DNA of 31,354 nucleotides. It comes from a virus. Position 1 is the stretch's first letter. Each line of letters starts with the position of its first letter. Under the pieces are notes generated by a model. That model was not told where the DNA came from. It saw only the letters and a list, made by a program, of their open reading frames with translations, and searched no databases. The DNA lies in IMG/VR virus record IMGVR_UViG_3300006803_000054, positions 1 to 31,354 of that record; one strand, given 5' to 3'. Position numbers and translations under genes: made by a program. Positions 1,321-16,231 of the stretch are shown here, piece by piece.

Positions 1321-1653
1321 ATGCTTAAAGAAATCGACTACAACGACGGCGAAATACACACTTGGAGTGGTGGTAAGTGTCCTATTCACCAAAAGAGTGT
1401 GGTTGACGTATCCTATGGAGGGCGGTGGATTCTCGCAGCTAAGGCAGCGGACCTTTATTGGTTCAAACCCCTCCTGTTCCGCATTACCAAGCAGCACATC
1501 GAGCCAGTAGCTCCCCCGAAGCCGCTGGAACTGTGGGTGAATGTTTATGCTGACGGACGTGTTATGGCATACAAAACCGCAGATATTGCCGCGTCTTGGC
1601 TTAGCAGGACTGGCCGCACCATTCGCGTGATCGAGGTGCTGGAAGATGTCTAA
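1321..1653 (+). CDS. Hypothetical phage protein with GEIHTWSGGKCP motif, 110 aa
   Basis: The start follows a strong leader (ATAGGAGAGAAATAAG-ATG). The N-terminal part (residues 10-25, DGEIHTWSGGKCPIHQ) is almost identical to that of the tiny protein at 1755-1889. The C-terminal half (about 66-106) begins LELWVNVYADGR and ends RTIRVIEV, a pattern I recall from accessory proteins of rhodobacterial phages. The Cys-Pro-x-His could bind a metal. Base composition is GC-richer than the neighbours, suggesting recent acquisition. The stop overlaps the start of the next membrane peptide. The function is unknown. Confidence 0.65.
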   Translation: MLKEIDYNDGEIHTWSGGKCPIHQKSVVDVSYGGRWILAAKAADLYWFKPLLFRITKQHIEPVAPPKPLELWVNVYADGRVMAYKTADIAASWLSRTGRTIRVIEVLEDV

Positions 1654-1717
1654 CACTCTCTACATCACCTGCATTGCTCTTTTCATACTTATCACGGCGT
1701 ATCTAATGGCCGCCTAA
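1646..1717 (+). CDS. Single-pass membrane micropeptide, 23 aa
   Basis: A 23-codon frame starts at ATG 1646, overlapping the last codons of the previous gene, with GAGG at 1634-1637 as a possible ribosome site. The peptide MSNTLYITCIALFILITAYL is nearly all hydrophobic and would form one transmembrane helix. Such tiny overlapping membrane peptides occur in phage early regions, but a chance frame cannot be excluded. Overlap with the upstream stop suggests translational coupling. The function is unknown. Confidence 0.4.
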   Translation: MSNTLYITCIALFILITAYLMAA

Positions 1718-1754
1718 ACCCATTCAACTGGATACCATGACAGAGGAGATTGAT

Positions 1755-1889
1755 ATGAGTGACAACAACAAAGACGGCGAAATTCATACATGGAGTGGTG
1801 GGAAATGTCCTGTTCACCCAAAGAGTGTGGTTCACACATCCTCCCATCTCTCTGGACAGGTAAGAGACATTCTGAAAGGGGAAATGTGA
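1755..1889 (+). CDS. Tiny paralogue of the 1321-1653 protein, 44 aa
   Basis: The frame starts at ATG 1755 after GAGGAG and ends at TGA 1889. Residues 7-20 (DGEIHTWSGGKCPV) match residues 10-23 of the protein at 1321 with one conservative change, and the DNA there is also nearly identical. It lacks the C-terminal LELWVN half. This points to a duplication followed by truncation, or a stand-alone copy of the N-terminal module. An in-frame ATG at 1737 is less likely because the ribosome site lies downstream of it. Confidence 0.5.
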   Translation: MSDNNKDGEIHTWSGGKCPVHPKSVVHTSSHLSGQVRDILKGEM

Positions 1890-1890
1890 T

Positions 1891-2094
1891 ATGGCGTGCC
1901 AGAAATGCGGCGCGGTAAGTGGGGATGACTGGTCGCAGTGCGGTGGCGTGTGCCCCATGCCGATGTCTCCGCACTACAAAGAACCCGAAAACAGAGGCAC
2001 GCATCGCCACAATGAGGCAAAAGCCTCCACCCCCGCCCTAGCCCTGACCATAGCCGCGCTGAATGCGCTGATCGAATTGGAGGATGCGAAGTGA
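1891..2094 (+). CDS. Small cysteine-motif protein, 67 aa
   Basis: The start follows the previous stop by one base, with AAGGGGA upstream. The N-terminus has CxxC (C3, C6) and a second pair C17 and C21 (QCGGVC), a plausible zinc-ribbon layout. The second half is Ala/Leu-rich and likely helical. Composition is GC-rich like the rest of the 1321-2094 cassette. I recall similar small Cys proteins in Roseobacter phages but assign no function. Confidence 0.55.
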   Translation: MACQKCGAVSGDDWSQCGGVCPMPMSPHYKEPENRGTHRHNEAKASTPALALTIAALNALIELEDAK

Positions 2095-2131
2095 ACCAAT
2101 GGCAAGTACGTTAGAGGAGAACTAAACCTTA

Positions 2132-3715
2132 ATGAGTACAACAGAAGATAAGATACACCAACCCTGCCCCTACGTTGACTGTGGCTCATCAGATGCCTTC
2201 TCGTGGAACAGCGATGGATTTGGGAAGTGCCATTCTTGTGGGGAAGGTTACCCCTCAAAGAAACCTAAGTTCAGTTGGGCAGAAAAAGAATACCCAGTTA
2301 AAACAATGGAGCAGATCATGAATACACCCGTAACTGGTGTAACTTACGACAACATCCGTAGTATCAGTCCAGAGGTCTGCAAGATTTATGGTATCCAAGT
2401 CCAAACTGATGCCGATGGAGTTCCAGTAAGATACGCCTACAAATACCCTAACAACATTAAGTACCGTGACTACAACGACAAGAAGAAGTCATGGATGAAG
2501 GAGAAGGGTCAGAAGATGGTCCACCTCTTTGGTCCAGATTTCAATGCTGGTTCCTCTAAACGTATCTATATTACTGAGGGAGAGTTTGATGCAGCCTCAC
2601 TCTATGAGGTCTTAGGTAAGACGTACCCAGTTAAATCTCTCCCTAGTGCATCTATTGGGGAAGCATTCATCAAAGCTAACTATGCTTATCTGTCGTCATT
2701 CCAAGAGGTAGTATATGCTGGTGAACTTAGTGATGATGCAGGACGTAAGGCAGCTGAGAAACTATATGCTGCACTCCCTGAGCGTTTCTACTACGTCCCA
2801 CTAACCAAGTGGAAAGATGCTAATGAGTTCCTAGAGAAGGGTGACAAGGAGGACCTCAAGTGGGCTGCGCTTAAACCTCAGCGATACTCCCCCGACAACT
2901 TCTTTTGTTCAGACTCAGATGTAGAGAAGGCTATCACTGAGGAAAACCCATATGAGTATGTACCAACTGGTCATACAGGTTGGGACGATAAACTACGGGG
3001 GTTAGTTAAGGGTGGGCTTACTTTCATCAAGGCACCTCGTGGCTTAGGTAAGACAGAGCTTGTACGCTACTTTGAAGTTGCTATGCTAAAGGACAAGGAT
3101 ACCCGCATTGCCCTACTTCATGCAGAGGAGCAGAAGAGTACTACCTACCGTGCTATGGCAACCTATGATCTAGGTGTTAATGTACGTACAAAAGATGATG
3201 CCAGAGATAATGGAGTAACTGAGCTACAGGTTATTGAGGCAGCTAAACGAGCTACAGATAATGAACGCACTATCATCTTTGAGATGAGAATCCATGATGA
3301 CCCAATGAAAATCTTGGAGTATGTTCGTCTAGCTGCTTCAGTGTATGGTGCTGATTTTATCTTTGTGGACCATATCCAACGTCTAGCTTATCTAAGTCAG
3401 ACTGGAGTAGATGGTGCTACCTCAATGCTAACTGCACTAGGCTCTCGTATGGCTCAGATGGCCAAGGAGTTGAACATCGGGGTTATCTTTATCTCTCAGG
3501 TCAATGACGACGGGAGGACCAAATACGCTGCTGCCCTAGAAGAAGAAGCTATTATCTGTGTACTACTTGAGAGAGACCTTGAGTCAGATGATGAGATTCT
3601 ACAGAACACTACGCACTTCAAGATTGATAAGAACAGACCATTCAGTAAGCTAGGGTCAGCTGGATCAGTGTACTATGAACCAGAGACAACTATCTTGACT
3701 GAATGTGACACTTAA
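2132..3715 (+). CDS. T7 gp4-like DNA primase-helicase
   Basis: This bifunctional replication protein makes RNA primers and unwinds DNA at the phage fork. A zinc-binding domain is at the N-terminus (C12, C17, C33, C36). A Toprim region follows with YITEGEFDAA (about 146-155) and an acidic GELSDDAGRKAA segment (about 197-208). The RecA-like helicase has Walker A APRGLGKT (301-308), Walker B FIFVDH (409-414) and a following VIFISQVN segment. Length 527 aa fits T7 gp4 (566 aa). AGAGGAGA lies about 11 bases before ATG 2132. It should act with the polymerase halves at 5414-7779 and the SSB. The Toprim DxD-like segment differs from the usual DNDEAG, but the enzyme looks complete. Confidence 0.93.
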   Translation: MSTTEDKIHQPCPYVDCGSSDAFSWNSDGFGKCHSCGEGYPSKKPKFSWAEKEYPVKTMEQIMNTPVTGVTYDNIRSISPEVCKIYGIQVQTDADGVPVRYAYKYPNNIKYRDYNDKKKSWMKEKGQKMVHLFGPDFNAGSSKRIYITEGEFDAASLYEVLGKTYPVKSLPSASIGEAFIKANYAYLSSFQEVVYAGELSDDAGRKAAEKLYAALPERFYYVPLTKWKDANEFLEKGDKEDLKWAALKPQRYSPDNFFCSDSDVEKAITEENPYEYVPTGHTGWDDKLRGLVKGGLTFIKAPRGLGKTELVRYFEVAMLKDKDTRIALLHAEEQKSTTYRAMATYDLGVNVRTKDDARDNGVTELQVIEAAKRATDNERTIIFEMRIHDDPMKILEYVRLAASVYGADFIFVDHIQRLAYLSQTGVDGATSMLTALGSRMAQMAKELNIGVIFISQVNDDGRTKYAAALEEEAIICVLLERDLESDDEILQNTTHFKIDKNRPFSKLGSAGSVYYEPETTILTECDT

Positions 3716-3737
3716 ACATGAATAGGAGATAATACAG

Positions 3738-4274
3738 ATGGGAAAGACATTGAAAGAGTTAGGCGTGCAGGTTGGTGATATCATCAAGCGTACTGGATGG
3801 CATGATGAATTCCACATGTATGTTGGTGATTACTACGAAGTTCGGGGTGGGGAGTATGGGGTCGCCGCATATAATAATACTGTTCAAAATAGTTGGGTAC
3901 CTCTTGGAGATACGAGTGGCTACTTCGAAATCGTGTCTCGTGCTACACCAGTAGCTCCCCCCATCGACCTAACCACAATAACTACACCCTTCGGCCTACT
4001 GGATGAAGCAACACAGAAGGCGCTTAAGGATGATGGTGGGCCGTATGAGTTTTATAGCGGTGACAGGTGGTTTGAGCATGGCCCATTGTGGTATAGAACA
4101 AGCACATACCGCAAGAAACCCGTCCCCAAGGTCGAGACAGTGGTGTTGACTGGGTGTCAAAGGTGGGGTCATTGGGCTTTCGACCAAGCTGACTTAGGTG
4201 ATACCCACTCAATCACCCTAACCTTCACCGATGGTGTCCTTGATTCAGTAGCTAAGGTAGAGGTATTAAAATGA
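3738..4274 (+). CDS. Accessory protein of the VGD/IVSRA family, 178 aa
   Basis: It starts after a clear AGGAGATAATACAG leader. Residues 1-73 carry LGVQVGDII and end in FEIVSRA, matching the partial protein at 1-222. The start (TLKELGVQVGD) also resembles that of the 16424 protein (TLKEFGFNVGD). The middle carries a short DGGPYEFYSGDRW stretch, and the C-terminus (from about 130, VPKVETVVLTG) is a likely beta domain ending in LTFTDG. It appears to be a modular accessory protein of phages of this type. The function is unknown. The stop overlaps the next start by ATGA, implying coupling. Confidence 0.75.
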   Translation: MGKTLKELGVQVGDIIKRTGWHDEFHMYVGDYYEVRGGEYGVAAYNNTVQNSWVPLGDTSGYFEIVSRATPVAPPIDLTTITTPFGLLDEATQKALKDDGGPYEFYSGDRWFEHGPLWYRTSTYRKKPVPKVETVVLTGCQRWGHWAFDQADLGDTHSITLTFTDGVLDSVAKVEVLK

Positions 4275-4594
4275 GATATACTCCAGATAACTGGGTTGTC
4301 CTAAAGATTAATGTGGCTGAGGAAGGAGACCTACACTACAGGGTACTTGGTGGTTGGTCAGGGGGTTACACTACAGGAGACTCTTGGAGGCTCAATAGTG
4401 GGATCACCTCAGTACTAGATGGAGGAGACTACCTCATCTTTCATGGGTCTACTGGATCAGAGTATATCTGCTCCAAGGAAACTTATGGATTACGCATGAA
4501 CAATGCACACATAGCATCTTATTACCTAGAAGAGTATCCCGGTATGGTTGAGCTTATGCCAGAGGATACTGACTGGGTTAAGTTGTTTAGTTAG
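4271..4594 (+). CDS. Hypothetical protein, 107 aa
   Basis: The ATG overlaps the TGA stop of the upstream gene (ATGA), so it is probably translated by re-initiation. The sequence starts MRYTPDNWVVLKI and is rich in Gly, Tyr and Trp with alternating hydrophobics, suggesting a beta fold. It contains no recognisable catalytic motif. Coupling to the VGD-family gene suggests a shared, probably non-essential role. No family is recognised. Confidence 0.7.
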   Translation: MRYTPDNWVVLKINVAEEGDLHYRVLGGWSGGYTTGDSWRLNSGITSVLDGGDYLIFHGSTGSEYICSKETYGLRMNNAHIASYYLEEYPGMVELMPEDTDWVKLFS

Positions 4595-4610
4595 AAATAG
4601 GAGAGACGAT

Positions 4611-4784
4611 ATGTATGTATACCCTATTCACACTAAAAGTGAAGTAGAGCCAGTAGCAGTGTGTGACACAGAGGAGGTAGCAAAGGAGCTGGTTGAACTC
4701 CTTAAAGAAGAGTCTGGCAGAACCCACTGGTTCAGTTGCTACGAAGTCTGCACTAATGCCCCAGACTTTATTGACCATTGGTAG
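4611..4784 (+). CDS. Small hypothetical protein, 57 aa
   Basis: The frame is open from 4548, but the start is placed at ATG 4611 because AATAGGAGAG lies just before it and the earlier codons overlap the upstream gene. The protein starts MYVYPIHTKSEVEPVAV. A helix around EEVAKELVELLKEE and a C-terminal Cys pair are visible. No family is recognised; it lies in a run of small early genes. Confidence 0.65.
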   Translation: MYVYPIHTKSEVEPVAVCDTEEVAKELVELLKEESGRTHWFSCYEVCTNAPDFIDHW

Positions 4785-4796
4785 AGGAGAATAACG

Positions 4797-5207
4797 ATGA
4801 CAGACTATACTGATTATAGAGTCTGGAGAGACATTGAGTTGTGGGACGAAAAGGAGTATCTCCAAGACCATCAAGAGTACTCCCCAGAAGATGTGTTTCA
4901 GATTTGTAATAACCTAATTGAGAAGGCAGTTAAAAGTGGTCTGGAGGGTTGCTACCTCAAGTTTAGTTCCCATATGGAGCCTTATGATGACTGTCTGGGG
5001 CCACCATCTATCACTGCTTGTGGGTATCGTAAGGCCAGCTGGTACGAAAAGGCTGAAGCCAAAACTCAAGATGAGATGTATAAACTAGCTCAGTCCTTAG
5101 GTATTACTTTCTACGAGGCCACTATTTTAGACAAGCTCCAGAAAGATGGTAAGGTAAGCTACAACAACCCAACACAAACGGAGAATAACAATGGCACTAT
5201 GCTATAA
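4797..5207 (+). CDS. Hypothetical acidic protein, 136 aa
   Basis: AGAGGAGAATAACG precedes ATG 4797. The first half is rich in Asp, Trp and Tyr; the second half has a helical segment (KTQDEMYKLAQSLG) and a charged tail. The tail overlaps the next gene by 17 bases in another frame. No catalytic or metal motif stands out. The function is unknown. Confidence 0.7.
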   Translation: MTDYTDYRVWRDIELWDEKEYLQDHQEYSPEDVFQICNNLIEKAVKSGLEGCYLKFSSHMEPYDDCLGPPSITACGYRKASWYEKAEAKTQDEMYKLAQSLGITFYEATILDKLQKDGKVSYNNPTQTENNNGTML

Positions 5208-5379
5208 AGATATGACGTTCTGTAAGAGTGACTGCTTGAACACTGACTGCTTCAGGTATTATGACGAGGGGGTAGCTAAGGATGCAGCTGACTTTGGGCT
5301 ACCATGTGCCTTGTCAGATATGAGTAACCGATGCTCAATGTATACCCCACCTAAGAGCTTAGAGAGCTATGGTGACTAA
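5191..5379 (+). CDS. Cysteine-rich small protein, 62 aa
   Basis: CGGAGAATAACA precedes ATG 5191, inside the end of the upstream gene. The sequence CYKDMTFCKSDC is followed by CLNTDC, then C39 and C48, six to seven cysteines in 62 residues, a likely zinc-binding mini-protein. Proteins starting CYKDMTFC are widespread in tailed phages to my recollection. Their role is unknown. It lies directly before the polymerase gene. Confidence 0.75.
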   Translation: MALCYKDMTFCKSDCLNTDCFRYYDEGVAKDAADFGLPCALSDMSNRCSMYTPPKSLESYGD

Positions 5380-5413: not shown

Positions 5414-6766
5414 ATGGCAGTATTTGATGTAGAAGCTGATGGACTACTAGAGGAGGCAACAAAGCTACATGTATTGTCATACCAACCTCTAGGTTCTACT
5501 GAAGTACACTCAGTCCATCACTATGATGACATGAGGGAGTTCCTAACTACAGAGAAGGTCCTAATTGGACACAACATCTATCGCTATGATGTACCACTCC
5601 TAGAGAAGCTCCTCAACATCGAGATTAAAGCCAAGCTCTATGACACTCTTCCTATGTCGTGGTACTTGAATACCAATAGACTCAAGCATGGCCTAGACTC
5701 TTTCGGTGATGACTACGGTATCCCTAAACCCAAGATCACTGACTGGGAAGGGTTAACTAGAGAGGAGTACACACATCGTTGCCAAGAAGATGTTAAGATC
5801 AACATGGCTCTCTGGAATGATCTAATCAAACGTCTCCTCTTCCTCTATAAGGACCGTACAGCCCTAGAGAAGTTCCTTGGGTACCTCATGTTCAAGATGA
5901 AGTGTGCTAGCACTCAGGAGGCCTTAGGATGGCCCGTAGACACTGTTGCAGTCCTTAAGCACATCGAGACACTGACAGCACAACAAAAGGAGAAGAAGAC
6001 AGAGCTAGTCAAGGTTATGCCTAAGCATAAGGTGTACAAGATAGCTAAGCCCCCAAAGGTTCTCTTCAAGAAAGATGGTACAGCCTCAGTGGCTGGTCAG
6101 GGGTGGTTCGATGTATTGGACCAAGAGGGCTTAGATAGAACACACCAAGAAGATGTTAGAGTCTTCAAGGAAGAGGTTGACCCTAACCCTCAGAGTTCAG
6201 ACCAAGTAAAGGATTGGCTCTATGGTCTAGGTTGGGAACCCTGTACCTTCGACTACAAGAAGGACGACAAGACAGGGGATGAACGTAAGGTACCTCAGGT
6301 AAGGAAGGATGGTGAACTAACTGAGTCAGTTAAACTGCTAATTGAGAAAGACCAATCAGTTGGGGTACTTGATGGACTAACAGTTATCCAACATAGACTA
6401 AGTATCTTCGAGGCATTCAGAGACATGGAAGTTGACGGTAAGCTTAAGGCAGAGATTGCTGGCCTAACGAATACCCTACGCTTCAAACACTCTAAACCTC
6501 TAGTCAATCTCCCCGGAGTAGATAAACCTTGGGGCAAGGAGATTAGGGGTTGCTTGATTGCCCCAGAGGGTCATGTACTTTGTGGTGCTGACATGGTGTC
6601 CCTTGAAGATACTACTAAGAGGCACTATGTAAAGCCTCTCGACCCAACTCTTGTTGAAGAGCAGACAAGGGATGACTACGACCCACACCTTAAACTTGCA
6701 GTTGTTGCTGGTATGCTCTCTCAAGAGGACTATGATTTTTATGTCAGTTATAAGAAAGAAGGTTAG
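5414..6766 (+). CDS. Family A DNA polymerase, N-terminal fragment (exonuclease plus palm motif A)
   Basis: This is the first part of a T7-like replicative polymerase. Exo I is FDVEADG (D5, E7), Exo II GHNIYRYD (about 52-59) and Exo III CQEDV (about 123-127). Polymerase motif A is GADMVSLEDTTK with likely catalytic D393. The frame stops at 6766, before motifs B and C, because an HNH endonuclease gene is inserted. The rest of the enzyme is at 7246-7779 in a different frame. AAGGAG lies upstream of ATG 5414. Unless RNA splicing removes the insert, this 450-residue chain must work with the C-terminal chain in trans. Identity as family A polymerase is secure; the split architecture is read directly from the sequence. 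Confidence 0.92.
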   Translation: MAVFDVEADGLLEEATKLHVLSYQPLGSTEVHSVHHYDDMREFLTTEKVLIGHNIYRYDVPLLEKLLNIEIKAKLYDTLPMSWYLNTNRLKHGLDSFGDDYGIPKPKITDWEGLTREEYTHRCQEDVKINMALWNDLIKRLLFLYKDRTALEKFLGYLMFKMKCASTQEALGWPVDTVAVLKHIETLTAQQKEKKTELVKVMPKHKVYKIAKPPKVLFKKDGTASVAGQGWFDVLDQEGLDRTHQEDVRVFKEEVDPNPQSSDQVKDWLYGLGWEPCTFDYKKDDKTGDERKVPQVRKDGELTESVKLLIEKDQSVGVLDGLTVIQHRLSIFEAFRDMEVDGKLKAEIAGLTNTLRFKHSKPLVNLPGVDKPWGKEIRGCLIAPEGHVLCGADMVSLEDTTKRHYVKPLDPTLVEEQTRDDYDPHLKLAVVAGMLSQEDYDFYVSYKKEG

Positions 6767-7304
6767 TGACCTAGTAGGCAGAGAGTTTGACAGACTTGTT
6801 GTCACTGAGTACTTAGGTTTAGGTAAACACAGTAAGCATTACTGGAGGTGTACCTGCAAATGTGGTGGGGAGATTGTGCTGCCTACTTATAGGGTCACAG
6901 GTAAAACAACCAGTACAAAAAGTTGTGGGTGCCTAAGGTCTGAAAAGCTTAGGGTTAATAGAAAAGACTCAACTACCCACGGCTTATATAGGCACAAGCT
7001 CTATGCCATACATTCAGGTATGAAGCAGAGATGTCACAACCCTAATTCTCAAAGGTATAAGTATTACGGGTTTATAGGTATCTCAATCTGCTCTGAGTGG
7101 GAAGAGAATTTCATGTCTTTTTACACTTGGGCTATGGGTAATGGTTATGAAGAAGGCCTCTCTATTGACAGGCTTGATAGTACGAACGGCTACTACCCTG
7201 AGAACTGCCAGTGGGTGACCATATCAGAAAACTCTAGGAGGATGAATGAAGGAAAGCAGAGAAGAAAGGTACAAGAGAATACACGCTGTAAGGAAGAAAG
7301 CTAA
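6741..7304 (+). CDS. HNH homing endonuclease inserted in the DNA polymerase gene
   Basis: The 187-residue protein starts at ATG 6741 (MSVIRKKVSDLVGREFD). An N-terminal zinc-ribbon-like part has CTCKCGG and KSCGCL. The HNH core follows with HSGMKQRCHNP, YKYYGFIGISIC, SIDRLDSTNGYYPENCQW, typical of phage HNH endonucleases. The first 26 bases overlap the end of the polymerase N fragment and the last 59 overlap the start of the C fragment, so almost no non-coding sequence remains for a group I intron. The frame is open back to 6651, but those codons lie in polymerase sequence. It presumably cuts uninterrupted polymerase genes to spread itself. Confidence 0.88.
   Translation: MSVIRKKVSDLVGREFDRLVVTEYLGLGKHSKHYWRCTCKCGGEIVLPTYRVTGKTTSTKSCGCLRSEKLRVNRKDSTTHGLYRHKLYAIHSGMKQRCHNPNSQRYKYYGFIGISICSEWEENFMSFYTWAMGNGYEEGLSIDRLDSTNGYYPENCQWVTISENSRRMNEGKQRRKVQENTRCKEES
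7236..7248 (+). promoter_or_regulatory. Shine-Dalgarno AGGAGG and ATG for the polymerase C fragment
   Basis: AGGAGG at 7236-7241 lies 4 bases before ATG 7246. The six bases are also two consecutive AGG arginine codons of the HNH gene. This gives the downstream polymerase piece its own start signal, supporting independent translation, though the spacer is short. Confidence 0.55.
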
Positions 7305-7779
7305 GGTTGTAACTTACAGCGCTATGTACGGAGTAGGCAAGTCAAAACTCTCTAGGACTACTGGTATGCCAGAGAAGGAGGCTGCCGCACTAATTGAAGC
7401 TTTTTGGGAGATTAATTGGGCAGTAAAAGAGGTAGCAGCAAAGGTTGAGATAAGGAAGATTAAAGGTCAGATGTGGGTTAAGAACCCTGTTAGCAGTTTT
7501 TGGCACTCCCTCAGGTACGAGAGGGATGTTTGGAGCACCCTTAACCAAAGCACAGGTGTCTACTGCTTCGATACTTGGGTTGCCTACTACCTAACTAAAC
7601 GGCCTGATCTACGTGGACAGTTCCATGACGAGACCATCAATGCAGTACCCAAGGGGGAGGAGAAGGTACACGAGAAGGTTCTTCAGTGGGCCATCGGTAA
7701 GGTCAACGATAAACTCAAACTCAACGTGGACCTAGGGGTTGACGTACAATTTGGGGCTAACTACTCCGAAATTCATTAG
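7246..7779 (+). CDS. Family A DNA polymerase, C-terminal fragment (motifs B and C)
   Basis: This is the second part of the polymerase. Motif B (O helix) is RKKAKVVTYSAMYG at residues 16-29, with R16, K20, Y24 and Y28 in the positions of E. coli Pol I R754, K758, F762 and Y766. Tyr at the 762 position is the T7 type, often linked to virulent phages. Motif C is HDE at 127-129. The break lies between motif A and motif B, in the fingers. The fragment runs in a frame different from both the N fragment and the HNH gene. ATG 7246 follows AGGAGG, but the conserved part begins only around ERYKRI (residues 7-12). Confidence 0.9.
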   Translation: MKESREERYKRIHAVRKKAKVVTYSAMYGVGKSKLSRTTGMPEKEAAALIEAFWEINWAVKEVAAKVEIRKIKGQMWVKNPVSSFWHSLRYERDVWSTLNQSTGVYCFDTWVAYYLTKRPDLRGQFHDETINAVPKGEEKVHEKVLQWAIGKVNDKLKLNVDLGVDVQFGANYSEIH

Positions 7780-12860: not shown

Positions 12861-12909
12861 TACCAGTACTATAATAGACTTAATGAAATCAAGGGGACTA
12901 AGTAAACTA

Positions 12910-15783
12910 ATGAGTAATCAACTGCCTACAGACTACCAGACCTTCATTGCAACTTCGAGATATGCCCGATGGTTGCCAGAAGAAAAACGACGAGAGAATT
13001 GGGGAGAAACAGTAACACGCTATGTAGATAACATTGTAAACAAGAAGCTAGCTGAGATTGATTACGTTGGTGGGGTAGCTATAGATATTGAAGAAGCTAT
13101 TCTGGACCTAGCCCTGATGCCCTCTATGCGATCAGTAATGACTGCAGGAGTAGCAGCTAAGCGTGATAATACTTGCATGTATAATTGCTCTTACCTTCCA
13201 GTGGATGATCCCAAGTCCTTTGATGAGGCTATGTTCATCTTGCTCTGTGGTACTGGTGTGGGCTTCTCAGTAGAGCGACAGTATGTATCTAAACTACCTG
13301 ATGTACCAGAGCGTATGTTTGATAGTGGTACAGTCGTTATGGTTAAAGATAGCAAAGAGGGTTGGGCCAAGTCTTATCGTCAAGTGCTCTCTCTCCTATG
13401 GGCTGGGGAGATTCCTAAGTGGGATACCTCTAAGGTTCGTCCAGCTGGCGCTAAACTCAAGACCTTTGGTGGTCGTGCATCTGGCCCAGCGCCACTTATT
13501 GACCTCTTCAACTTCACTATCCAAAAGTTCAAAGGTGCAGTTGGGCGTAAGCTCTCCTCCATTGAGTGCCACGATATTATGTGTAAGATTGGCGAGGTAG
13601 TGGTAGTTGGGGGTGTTCGTCGTTCAGCTATGATCTCTCTCTCTAACCTCTCTGATGACCGTATGCGTCACGCTAAGAGTGGTCAGTGGTGGGAGACACA
13701 AGCTCAACGAGGCTTAGCTAACAACTCAGTATGCTACACTGAGAAGCCTGATGTAGAGACCTTCCTACGTGAGTGGACTGCACTAGTTGAGAGTAAGTCT
13801 GGTGAACGTGGAATCTTTAATAGGGTAGCCTCACGTAAACAAGCAGCTAAGTATGGTCGTCGTAACCCTAACTTTGAATTTGGAACTAACCCCTGTTGTG
13901 TCTCAGGGGACACTCTCATACTCACTAGCACAGGTTATGAGCCTATCTCGGAGGCAGTAGGTCAACCAACTACAATCTGGAACGGAGAGTCTTGGGAACT
14001 TGTGTACCCCTATGAGGCTGGGGAAGCTAACCTATACCGGGTGACACTCTCTGATGGGTCTTACCTTGACTGCACGGACAACCACCGTTGGTGTGTAGGT
14101 AATGAGTTCGTTTACACGGAGGATTTGCAAGTAGGTAATAAGCTGGATAAGTTTGATATGCCTGTAGTAGGTAAAACGAAGCTGGAAATCTTCGACTATA
14201 TGGGGGCATACAGCCAAGGTTTCTACTCTGGTGATGGCACTAAAGGTAACACTAGGTCTTGGTTGTATGAGCCAAAGTATGGTTGTGACAGGAGCCTCGT
14301 AGGTAGAGTGTACGCAGATGGTAAAAACACACACCGCCGTGTTTGGAATCATGGACCTATGCTGGACAAATCATACGTGCCTATGGAGAAAGGAGTCTCG
14401 CATAAACTCGCTTGGCTAGCAGGCATCTTAGACTCTGATGGAACTGTTACACGGGACAAGAATGGTAGTGGCTTTCAGGTTGCTAGTATAGACCATGATT
14501 TTCTCGATAAGCTGCGACTGATGCTAACTACCCTTGGTGTACGAGCTAAAGTAGTCTCCGCAAGCCCAGCTGGTAAACGTATGATGCCAAACGGAAAAGG
14601 GGGCAACGCAGAGTATGACTGCAAAGAGACTAAGCGTATTCTAATTGGTAACTACGATGCTTGGAAGCTCATGAACCTAGGTTTAGGGGCATTTCTCAAT
14701 AGACTGGATCATAACGGTGAGGCCCCACAAAGAGATGCTAGGCAGTTTGTACGTGTTGTTAGTATAGAAGACCTTAACCTCCGAGAGATGACCTTCTGCT
14801 TTACTGAACCTAAAACTTCACGAGGTACTTTTAATGGTATTGTGACTGGTAACTCTGAAATTATCCTTCGACCGTATCAATTTTGTAATCTTTCGGAGGT
14901 AGTGGTAAGGGCTACAGACACCTTAGAAGACCTTGAGCGTAAGGTTAAGCTAGCAACTATTCTAGGTACTATCCAATCTACTTATACGCACTTCCCATAC
15001 CTACGCCCCATCTGGCAGAAGAATACAGAGGAAGAGAGACTTCTTGGAGTATCCCTTACTGGGATCATGGATAACCCACTGATGACGACAAAGAATAGGG
15101 GTTTGGATAAGACCCTTGAGCACCTTCGTCTAGTTGCAGTTGCAACCAATGCAGAGTGGGCTGAAAAGCTAGGTATTGAACAGTCTGTTGCTATTACATG
15201 CGTAAAACCCTCGGGCACAGTGTCACAACTAGTGGACTCAGCTAGTGGTATTCACACCCGACACTCTGAGTATTACATCCGTACAGTACGAGGGGACAGT
15301 AAAGACCCACTAACACAACTTATGAAGGACCAAGGAATCCCTAATGAACCCTGTGTGATGAAACCTGACCACACTGTAGTCTTTAGCTTCCCAGTTAAAG
15401 CCCCTACAGGGTGTGTTACCAGAGACGATATGACAGCCGTACAGCAGCTTGAGACATGGTTGATGTACCAACGTCACTGGTGTGAACATAAGCCCTCAGT
15501 GACAGTATCAGTCAAGGATGAGGAGTGGTTCGAGGTTGGGGCATTCGTCTACAAACACTTTGACGAAATGTCTGGGGTGTCGTTCCTACCTCATGATGGG
15601 GGTAGTTATCAACAAGCACCTTATCAGGAAGTGGGTAAGGAAGGGTATGAGGAACTACTAGCTAAGATGCCAGAGCGTATTGATTGGAGTAAGCTATCCG
15701 ACTATGAGAAAGATGATACTACATCTGGAATGCAAACTATGGCTTGTAGCGGCGACAGTTGTGAGTTTGTGGATTTGACTTGA
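12910..15783 (+). CDS. nrdJ: Adenosylcobalamin-dependent (class II) ribonucleotide reductase with intein
   Basis: It reduces ribonucleotides to deoxyribonucleotides using a B12-generated thiyl radical. Numbering below is from the upstream ATG 12883. Features are of the monomeric RTPR type: NC at 101-102 (redox Cys), CGTGVGFSVE (122-131), the radical-Cys motif NPC (336-338), then after the intein SEI ... QFCNL (658-669) with the second redox Cys, and a C-terminal CSGDSC (955-960) for re-reduction. The intein spans 339-657. Removing it leaves about 638-647 residues, close to RTPR. I prefer ATG 12910 (MSNQLPTDYQ) because AAGGGGA precedes it; 12883 lacks a ribosome site. A TATAAT at 12870-12875 could be a -10 box but lacks a convincing -35. 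Confidence 0.92.
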   Translation: MSNQLPTDYQTFIATSRYARWLPEEKRRENWGETVTRYVDNIVNKKLAEIDYVGGVAIDIEEAILDLALMPSMRSVMTAGVAAKRDNTCMYNCSYLPVDDPKSFDEAMFILLCGTGVGFSVERQYVSKLPDVPERMFDSGTVVMVKDSKEGWAKSYRQVLSLLWAGEIPKWDTSKVRPAGAKLKTFGGRASGPAPLIDLFNFTIQKFKGAVGRKLSSIECHDIMCKIGEVVVVGGVRRSAMISLSNLSDDRMRHAKSGQWWETQAQRGLANNSVCYTEKPDVETFLREWTALVESKSGERGIFNRVASRKQAAKYGRRNPNFEFGTNPCCVSGDTLILTSTGYEPISEAVGQPTTIWNGESWELVYPYEAGEANLYRVTLSDGSYLDCTDNHRWCVGNEFVYTEDLQVGNKLDKFDMPVVGKTKLEIFDYMGAYSQGFYSGDGTKGNTRSWLYEPKYGCDRSLVGRVYADGKNTHRRVWNHGPMLDKSYVPMEKGVSHKLAWLAGILDSDGTVTRDKNGSGFQVASIDHDFLDKLRLMLTTLGVRAKVVSASPAGKRMMPNGKGGNAEYDCKETKRILIGNYDAWKLMNLGLGAFLNRLDHNGEAPQRDARQFVRVVSIEDLNLREMTFCFTEPKTSRGTFNGIVTGNSEIILRPYQFCNLSEVVVRATDTLEDLERKVKLATILGTIQSTYTHFPYLRPIWQKNTEEERLLGVSLTGIMDNPLMTTKNRGLDKTLEHLRLVAVATNAEWAEKLGIEQSVAITCVKPSGTVSQLVDSASGIHTRHSEYYIRTVRGDSKDPLTQLMKDQGIPNEPCVMKPDHTVVFSFPVKAPTGCVTRDDMTAVQQLETWLMYQRHWCEHKPSVTVSVKDEEWFEVGAFVYKHFDEMSGVSFLPHDGGSYQQAPYQEVGKEGYEELLAKMPERIDWSKLSDYEKDDTTSGMQTMACSGDSCEFVDLT
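13897..14853 (+). mobile_element. Intein with LAGLIDADG homing endonuclease inside nrdJ
   Basis: A 319-residue in-frame insertion splits the conserved NPC|SEI active-site motif. Block A is CVSGDTLILTSTGYEPI (first residue Cys), block B has TDNH, the endonuclease motifs are QGFYSGDGT and LAGILDSDGT, and the end is TFNGIVTGN followed by extein Ser. The first Cys, last Asn and +1 Ser needed for splicing are present. The penultimate residue is Gly rather than the usual His, a variation known in some inteins. The intein begins directly after the catalytic Cys, so the enzyme should be inactive until splicing. Confidence 0.92.
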
Positions 15784-15877: not shown

Positions 15878-15955
15878 GGCCCCTTAGCTCAGCTGGATTA
15901 GAGCAAAAGACTTCTAATCTTTAGGCCGTAGGTTCGAGTCCTAGAGGGGTCACCA
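15878..15955 (+). tRNA. tRNA-Arg (TCT), CCA encoded
   Basis: Acceptor GGCCCCT/AGGGGTC with one G-T pair, D stem GCTC/GAGC, anticodon stem AAAGA/TCTTT with loop CTTCTAA (anticodon TCT, reads AGA), T arm with TTCGAGT loop, then A-CCA. The T stem has one mismatch at its base. AGA is rare in GC-rich alphaproteobacteria, so it probably supports phage codon use. Confidence 0.92.
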
Positions 15956-15968
15956 AAACTAATCTCTA

Positions 15969-16055
15969 GCGGGTGTGGTGAAACTGGTTATACACGTCAG
16001 ACTTAAAATCTGATTCCTTAATGGAGTGTGGGTTCAAGTCCCACCACCCGTACCA
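15969..16055 (+). tRNA. tRNA-Leu (TAA), CCA encoded
   Basis: Acceptor GCGGGTG/CACCCGT, anticodon stem TCAGA/TCTGA with loop CTTAAAA (anticodon TAA, reads TTA), a long variable arm typical of leucine tRNAs, T stem GTGGG/CCCAC, A-CCA end. It reads the AT-rich leucine codon. Confidence 0.93.
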
Positions 16056-16062
16056 AACCAAA

Positions 16063-16136
16063 GTCGGTGTAGCGTAATGGTAGCGCGTCAGTCTCCAAAA
16101 CTGAAAGTCGGGGTTCGATTCCCCGCACCCTCGCCA
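16063..16136 (+). tRNA. tRNA-Trp (CCA), CCA tail encoded, imperfect acceptor
   Basis: Anticodon stem TCAGT/ACTGA with loop CTCCAAA (anticodon CCA), T arm CGGGG/CCCCG with TTCGATT loop, discriminator G and CCA tail. Acceptor GTCGGTG against CACCCTC has two mismatches at positions 2 and 3. The G discriminator fits bacterial tRNA-Trp identity. It may be a decaying or edited tRNA. Confidence 0.85.
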
Positions 16137-16155
16137 CTAACACTAAAACTAATAT

Positions 16156-16231
16156 GCTTGCGTAGCTCAGTTGGTAGAGCGCTTGACTTGTAATCGAGAG
16201 GCCGTTGGTTCGACCCCGACCGTAAGCACCA
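16156..16231 (+). tRNA. tRNA-Thr (TGT), CCA encoded
   Basis: Acceptor GCTTGCG/CGTAAGC with one G-T, D stem GCTC/GAGC, anticodon stem CTTGA/TCGAG with loop CTTGTAA (anticodon TGT, reads ACA), T stem GTTGG/CCGAC, A-CCA. Confidence 0.93.

Follow-up and report, generated by a model that had tools for sequence, protein, structure and literature searches.

An HNH endonuclease gene divides a T7-like family A DNA polymerase gene into two reading frames whose products probably form one two-chain enzyme

The sequence analyzed here (the window) is a linear viral contig fragment of 31,354 bp, in which positions 5414 to 7779 encode a T7-like family A DNA polymerase as two open reading frames (ORFs) split by an HNH gene. 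The upstream polymerase piece (polN), the HNH gene and the downstream piece (polC) all lie on the plus strand in three different frames (Table 1), and their layout suggests that they are translated in this order. The split polymerase is located in a replication block with genes for a primase-helicase (2132 to 3715), a 5′-3′ exonuclease, ThyX and a phage endonuclease I. The window also carries a 966-residue ribonucleotide reductase ORF (12883 to 15783) with an apparent in-frame intein harboring a LAGLIDADG domain (residues ~508 to 584), as well as four clustered tRNA genes (15878 to 16228).

Table 1. Coordinates of the split polymerase locus in the window
Feature	Position	Strand	Remarks
polN: 3′-5′ exonuclease domain, thumb and N-terminal palm (motif A), ending with the helix that precedes the fingers loop	5414..6766	+	450 aa; stop TAG at 6764-6766
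Exo I motif, D-V-E (D-x-E)	5426..5434	+	Motif read in polN
Palm motif A, GADMVSLE	6584..6607	+	Motif read in polN
HNH homing-type endonuclease gene, phrog_374	6741..7304	+	187 aa, ATG start; overlaps both polymerase pieces
Insert between polN stop and polC start	6767..7245	+	479 nt, all HNH coding; without intron match
Shine-Dalgarno AGGAGG of polC	7236..7241	+	Inside HNH gene; four bases before ATG
In-frame TGA immediately upstream of polC ATG	7243-7245	+	Sequence
polC: fingers starting at the O helix, and C-terminal palm (motif C)	7246..7779	+	177 aa
Motif B/O helix, RKKAKVVTYSAMYG	7291..7332	+	Motif read in polC
Motif C, FHDE	7621..7632	+	Motif read in polC

The products of polN and polC match adjoining stretches of the phrog_17 profile (positions 674 to 1056 and 1061 to 1232, respectively; PHROGs), and that of polC also matches Pfam DNA_pol_A. 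Across the two ORFs, the order exo-A-B-C of a family A (T7-like) polymerase is maintained, the catalytic residues of the exonuclease and of motifs A, B and C are all kept, and the best PDB match is T7 polymerase. The HNH gene matches phrog_374 (PHROGs profile; E 5.5e-56), and its product returned no Pfam match. An earlier note on this DNA had placed the exonuclease, motif A and a stop codon in the first piece and motifs B and C, in another frame, in the second, and had described an HNH gene which fills the gap and overlaps both pieces, leaving almost no noncoding bases; all of these coordinates check out, with the HNH ORF sharing 26 nt with polN and 59 nt with polC and occupying the whole of the intervening sequence. 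Because a Shine-Dalgarno sequence lies four bases upstream of the polC ATG, which is itself directly preceded by an in-frame TGA, polC appears to be set up for its own initiation. The locus is a gene in pieces, being composed of two complete coding parts which are split by an endonuclease gene and each possess their own start.

The break was aligned to residues ~506 to 513 of T7 polymerase by means of a family profile alignment, and in an AlphaFold model of the unsplit polymerase of locus L008 (mean pLDDT 90), whose closest PDB entries are T7 polymerase, it falls in a loop (445 to 452) between helices 436 to 444 and 453 to 474. This agrees with the suggestion of the earlier note that the break lies just before the O helix of the fingers. 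In comparison to unsplit relatives, the end of polN and the start of polC fall in a loop which is variable in both length and sequence, with conserved columns kept on both sides: polN aligns to these relatives until ~1 to 5 residues from its end and polC from residue ~8 to 12 on, as exemplified by ...SQEDYDFYVSYKKEG / MKESREERYKRIHAVRKKAKVVTYS in the window versus ...SSEDYDFYTRSDEETVNDVARFKGIKKVRKKFKPVNYS in L008. Split members retain 103 to 108 of the 108 columns that are near-invariant in unsplit relatives, while L027, of which the sequence is partial, retains all 103 of the columns covered. The break is, therefore, positioned in a surface loop that immediately precedes the O helix, and it removes no conserved residue of the polymerase.

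The same arrangement recurs in other contigs of this group of aquatic bacterial viruses. A second IMG/VR contig of the same phage (L002) matches the locus over 10,531 nt with a single mismatch, and an orthologous arrangement is present on a 53.9-kb contig (L265), the products of which are 61% (polN), 72% (polC) and 59% (HNH) identical to those of the window, while L010 harbors an HNH gene whose product is 58% identical to that of the window at the same site. An assembly error was rejected on the basis of the same locus in L002 and the same arrangement, with ~60% identical proteins, in L265 and L010. Since divergence is similar in the polymerase and in the HNH protein, the comparison suggests that the splits of the window and L265 may derive from one event, in which case the split would have been kept through ~30 to 40% amino acid divergence. 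An unsplit gene is nonetheless usual: in the first sets of related loci, 156 have a single open polymerase frame, and a comparable split is thus not expected by chance. The polymerase of R16F is likewise a single ORF, and none of the GenBank phage polymerases sampled near the top of the match ranking is split. Pseudomonas phage KIL3 (L273), the related polymerase of which (1474 to 4728) is annotated in the record as a coding sequence joined from two pieces, was considered as a split or intron case and rejected, as this gene actually contains a large intein, in frame and directly upstream of CNYASVYN.

Among the relatives are several in which the endonuclease gene is lost and the polymerase is still split. 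In L011, L012 and L013, which are close kin of L010, the HNH gene has been deleted except for its ends, leaving a scar of 43 nt from the stop codon to the polC ATG, and both the polymerase middle piece (305 aa) and polC (176 aa), with an AAGGAG site, are intact. L027 and L269 carry in the same loop an endonuclease of the Endo VII type (Pfam Endonuclease_7), which is unrelated to the HNH protein and belongs to a characterized homing family (PMC6083498). In L124, an Endo VII-type gene has been shortened by deletion between two copies of gctaga (ATGGCTAG to ATAGCTAG), with loss of its ATG, and the polymerase is left as two intact ORFs that are 80 nt apart. The Shine-Dalgarno sequence of polC is strong in the window, L265 and L010 to L013 and only modest in L027 and L124. 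Comparison of these loci shows that loss of the endonuclease with retention of the split would have happened twice, independently, i.e., in L011 to L013 and in L124. As gaps of 43 or 80 nt are too short to hold an intron, the polymerases of these strains must be either two-chain or dead.

Additional gene rearrangements were observed around these polymerases. In L010 (3125 to 3607 and 3592 to 4509), L011, L012 and L013, the exonuclease domain is encoded by a gene apart from that of the polymerase domain, so that these loci, with their split fingers, would have three-piece polymerases; a separate exonuclease gene is also found in L085, L086, L076, L079, L080, L114 and L116. The two genes are separated by a DNA methylase gene (N6_N4_Mtase) in L012 and L013 and by an 82-codon ORF in L011. 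The exonuclease ORF of L010 to L013 lacks an ATG, GTG or TTG at the expected N terminus (~3152 in L010, ~1949 in L011 and ~2879 in L013) and has a strong Shine-Dalgarno sequence ahead of an ATC codon, which is possibly a noncanonical start. Further HNH/Endo VII-like genes lie immediately upstream of the polymerase gene, overlapping or adjoining it, in L265 (2613 to 3092) and L269 (2754 to 3215), rendering the polymerase operon rich in endonuclease genes.

Pairs of closely related split and unsplit strains, as well as conflicting trees, point to movement of the insert. L013 (split) and L085 (unsplit) are ~96% identical in the flanks and diverge only at ~4790 to 5297, a tract reaching from ~155 nt left of the break to ~305 nt right of the polC start. 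L027 (split) and L068 (unsplit), with flanks that are 99 to 100% identical, diverge only at ~1065 to 1660, corresponding to ~85 nt on the left and ~90 nt on the right. L124 and L027 are ~75% identical overall and 93 to 100% identical around the insert. A tree of the break-proximal (cassette) region grouped the window with L265 and L010 to L013 (support 0.975) and L027 with L124 (1.0), whereas the thumb tree placed L010 to L013 with the unsplit L085, L027 with the unsplit L068, and the window, L265 and L269 with the unsplit L008 and L009. L265 and L269 are sisters in the thumb tree, yet carry different endonucleases at the same place. Site-specific presence and absence of the insert with conversion of its flanks was, therefore, evident from the L013/L085 and L027/L068 pairs and from the conflict between cassette and flank trees, and such divergent tracts, near-identical flanks and tree conflict are the traces to be expected of homing with co-conversion. 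For the window itself, the support for homing consists of the tree conflict, a near-identical unsplit strain being known for L013 and L027 and not for the window.

Whether the divided polymerase is still functional was assessed from the substitutions within the split clade. For L010 to L013, dN/dS amounted to 0.16 to 0.20 in the middle piece and 0.185 in polC, and a comparison of L011 and L013, both of which lack the endonuclease, yielded 16 nonsynonymous and 25 synonymous substitutions in the pooled pieces (p ~2e-7 against neutrality), bearing in mind that these are few substitutions, some of which were possibly imported by recombination from unsplit relatives. These values show both halves to be evolving in the manner of genes under purifying selection. 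No second PolA or PolB was found in kindred contigs of up to 59 kb, nor was a second PolA found in the 31-kb window (a search for PolA only, with polC as the query), with the qualification that all split cases are metagenomic contigs from uncultured, incomplete genomes, none of them circular, so that a second polymerase could conceivably be encoded off the contig. The intact polymerase gene elsewhere in the genome that the earlier note had named as contrary evidence did not, accordingly, turn up in these searches of the window and its kindred contigs.

These results bear directly on the reading that the insertion has inactivated the polymerase, the genome being copied by another viral or host enzyme. 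The incompleteness of the contigs leaves room for such a pseudogene, which is nonetheless very improbable given that both halves are open and under apparent purifying selection even in lineages without the endonuclease, that every catalytic motif is retained, that contigs of up to 59 kb yielded no second PolA or PolB, and that genes for the primase-helicase, 5′-3′ exonuclease, ThyX and endonuclease I accompany the polymerase; selection and motif retention led us to reject it. The earlier note had offered as one of two alternatives a very compact splicing element in coding sequence, i.e., a group I intron hidden in the HNH gene whose removal from the RNA would join polN and polC. Phage DNA polymerase genes do indeed commonly contain group I introns that carry an HNH or Endo VII endonuclease (PMC11878797, PMC6083498), and a distant family A relative, L200, harbors an Endo VII-type gene inside its O-helix codons (KTLNYA / FGASD; 2652 to 3443) together with a full-length group I match below the gathering threshold, which was recovered by a permissive Rfam search (28.9 bits, E 3.6e-5). 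This match lies at a different site; both routes of polymerase invasion appear to exist side by side. The search for a group I intron core in the insert which the earlier note had proposed was performed with Rfam. The window yielded no match, either at the gathering threshold or at an E value of ≤5, and the inserts of L265 and L269 gave none even when the threshold was relaxed to this level; ten related loci were likewise negative at gathering. Moreover, the insert is 100% endonuclease coding, whereas the introns of Bastillevirinae carry 350 ± 108 noncoding nt (PMC11878797). On its own, the lack of an Rfam match would not settle the matter, but the deletion scars do, since those of L011 to L013 (43 nt) and L124 (80 nt) are too small for a group I intron and yet the split persists. 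The compact splicing element of the earlier note is thus left with neither a group I match nor room in the scars, and we regard it as highly unlikely.

Ribosomal bypassing, by which the two parts would be fused during translation, has a precedent in T4 gene 60, where the hop is about 50 nt. The gaps in L011 to L013 are close to this length and the T4 case is also tied to a homing endonuclease, but in none of seven loci (the window, L265, L010, L011, L013, L269 and L027) does the polC frame offer, upstream of the O helix, a landing codon that matches the final sense codon, and the polC ATG of the window is directly preceded by an in-frame stop in addition to its AGGAGG site. A hop of 479 nt would, to our knowledge, be without precedent, and bypassing is considered extremely improbable. 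Split intein halves which join the chains by protein trans-splicing, in the style of fractured genes, are known with an endonuclease gene between them from phage PolB (MIJ3; PMC6892783). There is no room for such halves in the present case, as alignments reveal that both polN and polC end in polymerase sequence; the alignments refute this reading, to which we attach a negligible probability.

It is, therefore, a two-chain polymerase, rather than splicing, to which the relatives point. Such an enzyme, functional in trans, had been the other alternative of the earlier note, and it is strongly supported by sequence comparison, namely by split relatives from which the endonuclease is deleted, by the selection on both pieces, by the homing footprints and by the lack of a second polymerase in the contigs searched. 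We propose that a free-standing HNH homing endonuclease gene invaded a T7-like family A polymerase gene at its fingers loop and thereby divided it into two parts, which would be separately translated from one operon in the order polN, HNH and polC, with polC being translated in an overlapping frame from its own Shine-Dalgarno sequence inside the HNH gene. The two chains, one contributing the exonuclease, thumb and N-terminal palm and the other the fingers and C-terminal palm, are presumed to fold in trans into a working polymerase, which would be possible because the interruption falls in a surface loop of variable length and nothing conserved has been removed. The split would travel with the endonuclease, which is predicted to cleave the unsplit allele and thereby to trigger gene conversion replacing ~85 to 155 nt of polymerase sequence on the left and 90 to 300 nt on the right. 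The endonuclease could later be lost by deletion, with the polymerase staying divided. The sequences themselves show the architecture, its recurrence, the conversion tracts and deletion scars and the purifying selection, and they revealed neither an intron signal nor a second polymerase. From their comparison we infer that the endonuclease is active, that the two chains assemble, that the assembled polymerase is active and that events occurred in this order. For the explanation as a whole, i.e., a mobile split made by a homing endonuclease gene, yielding a two-chain, trans-assembled family A polymerase that stays divided once the endonuclease is lost, we estimate a probability of roughly 0.87.

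Polymerases divided in two have precedents, among which that of certain Aeromonas phages is associated with an endonuclease of the GIY-YIG type, unlike the HNH protein described here. As outlined in a review (PMC2988022), the PolB halves gp43A and gp43B of Aeromonas phage 25 co-purify with polymerase activity (Petrov 2010), and PolB of Aeromonas phage 44RR is split by untranslated sequence. According to the same outline, these phages share with the present case a replicative polymerase encoded by two genes, which an endonuclease gene (seg) separates in one phage but not in a relative, while differing in that the polymerase is of family B, the phages are T4-like and a single locus is concerned. 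In the polymerases described here, by contrast, two unrelated endonucleases occupy one loop, and conversion tracts as well as two apparently independent deletions are visible. The earlier note had cited as precedent the NrdA of phage Aeh1, split by mobE, which, as far as the review describes it (Friedrich 2007, cited in PMC2988022), likewise involves an HNH endonuclease in an essential gene without intron or intein and two separately translated chains; this is the same kind of split, albeit in a different enzyme and with activity demonstrated by experiment where ours is deduced, and the PolB of Aeromonas phage 25 represents the closer precedent.

The OM43 phages MEP401 and MEP402 (Zobellviridae), which are of a related phage family, also encode a family A polymerase by two genes, which flank a small ORF, but there the break falls just before motif A rather than before the O helix, the ORF in between is not among the known endonucleases, and an intron was surmised by the authors (PMC10580990). 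The split polymerase of MEP401 (L181; 6111 to 8221), the second ORF of which starts with MILNADAKALEWV, is another two-chain candidate. The group I introns of SPO1, Bastille, Pf-WMP3 and LUZ24 involve the same kinds of endonuclease and the same target gene (PMC11878797, PMC3428280, PMC6083498), yet possess a splicing ribozyme, whereas none was found here and none would fit the scars. The methylase of actinophage ShiLan contains an out-of-frame HNH insertion which, as in the present case, is without a detectable splicing element, but which leaves the host frame open and the protein lengthened, whereas here the host protein is terminated and then restarted (PMC11855218). Our literature search, which was incomplete, turned up neither a family A polymerase that a homing endonuclease has split at the O-helix loop nor endonuclease-free derivatives thereof. 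Splits made by homing endonuclease genes are known for NrdA and PolB, and the present case is the family A, recurrent, mobile and endonuclease-free version.

A broader proposal, the odds of which we consider evenly balanced, is that the fragmented family A polymerase represents a stable multisubunit enzyme, with two chains in the window lineage and three (exonuclease, palm and fingers) in L010 to L013, the break points of which would act as hot spots for repeated insertion and loss of endonucleases, a DNA methylase and small ORFs, with the pieces of the polymerase being retained throughout. Alongside ribonucleotide reductase and family B polymerase, the present findings would place the T7/Pol I type, in which the catalytic fingers would reside on a different chain from motif A, among the enzymes whose genes endonucleases have divided, and would provide a ready design for a two-part (e.g., switchable) Pol A enzyme. 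Furthermore, published split polymerases of marine phages that were presumed to be intron-interrupted may be real two-chain enzymes. The relatives constitute a natural series of unsplit genes, genes split with an endonuclease and genes split after its loss, some members of which are near-identical outside the insert, and this makes it testable whether a selfish element may permanently turn a one-chain enzyme into a multisubunit one.
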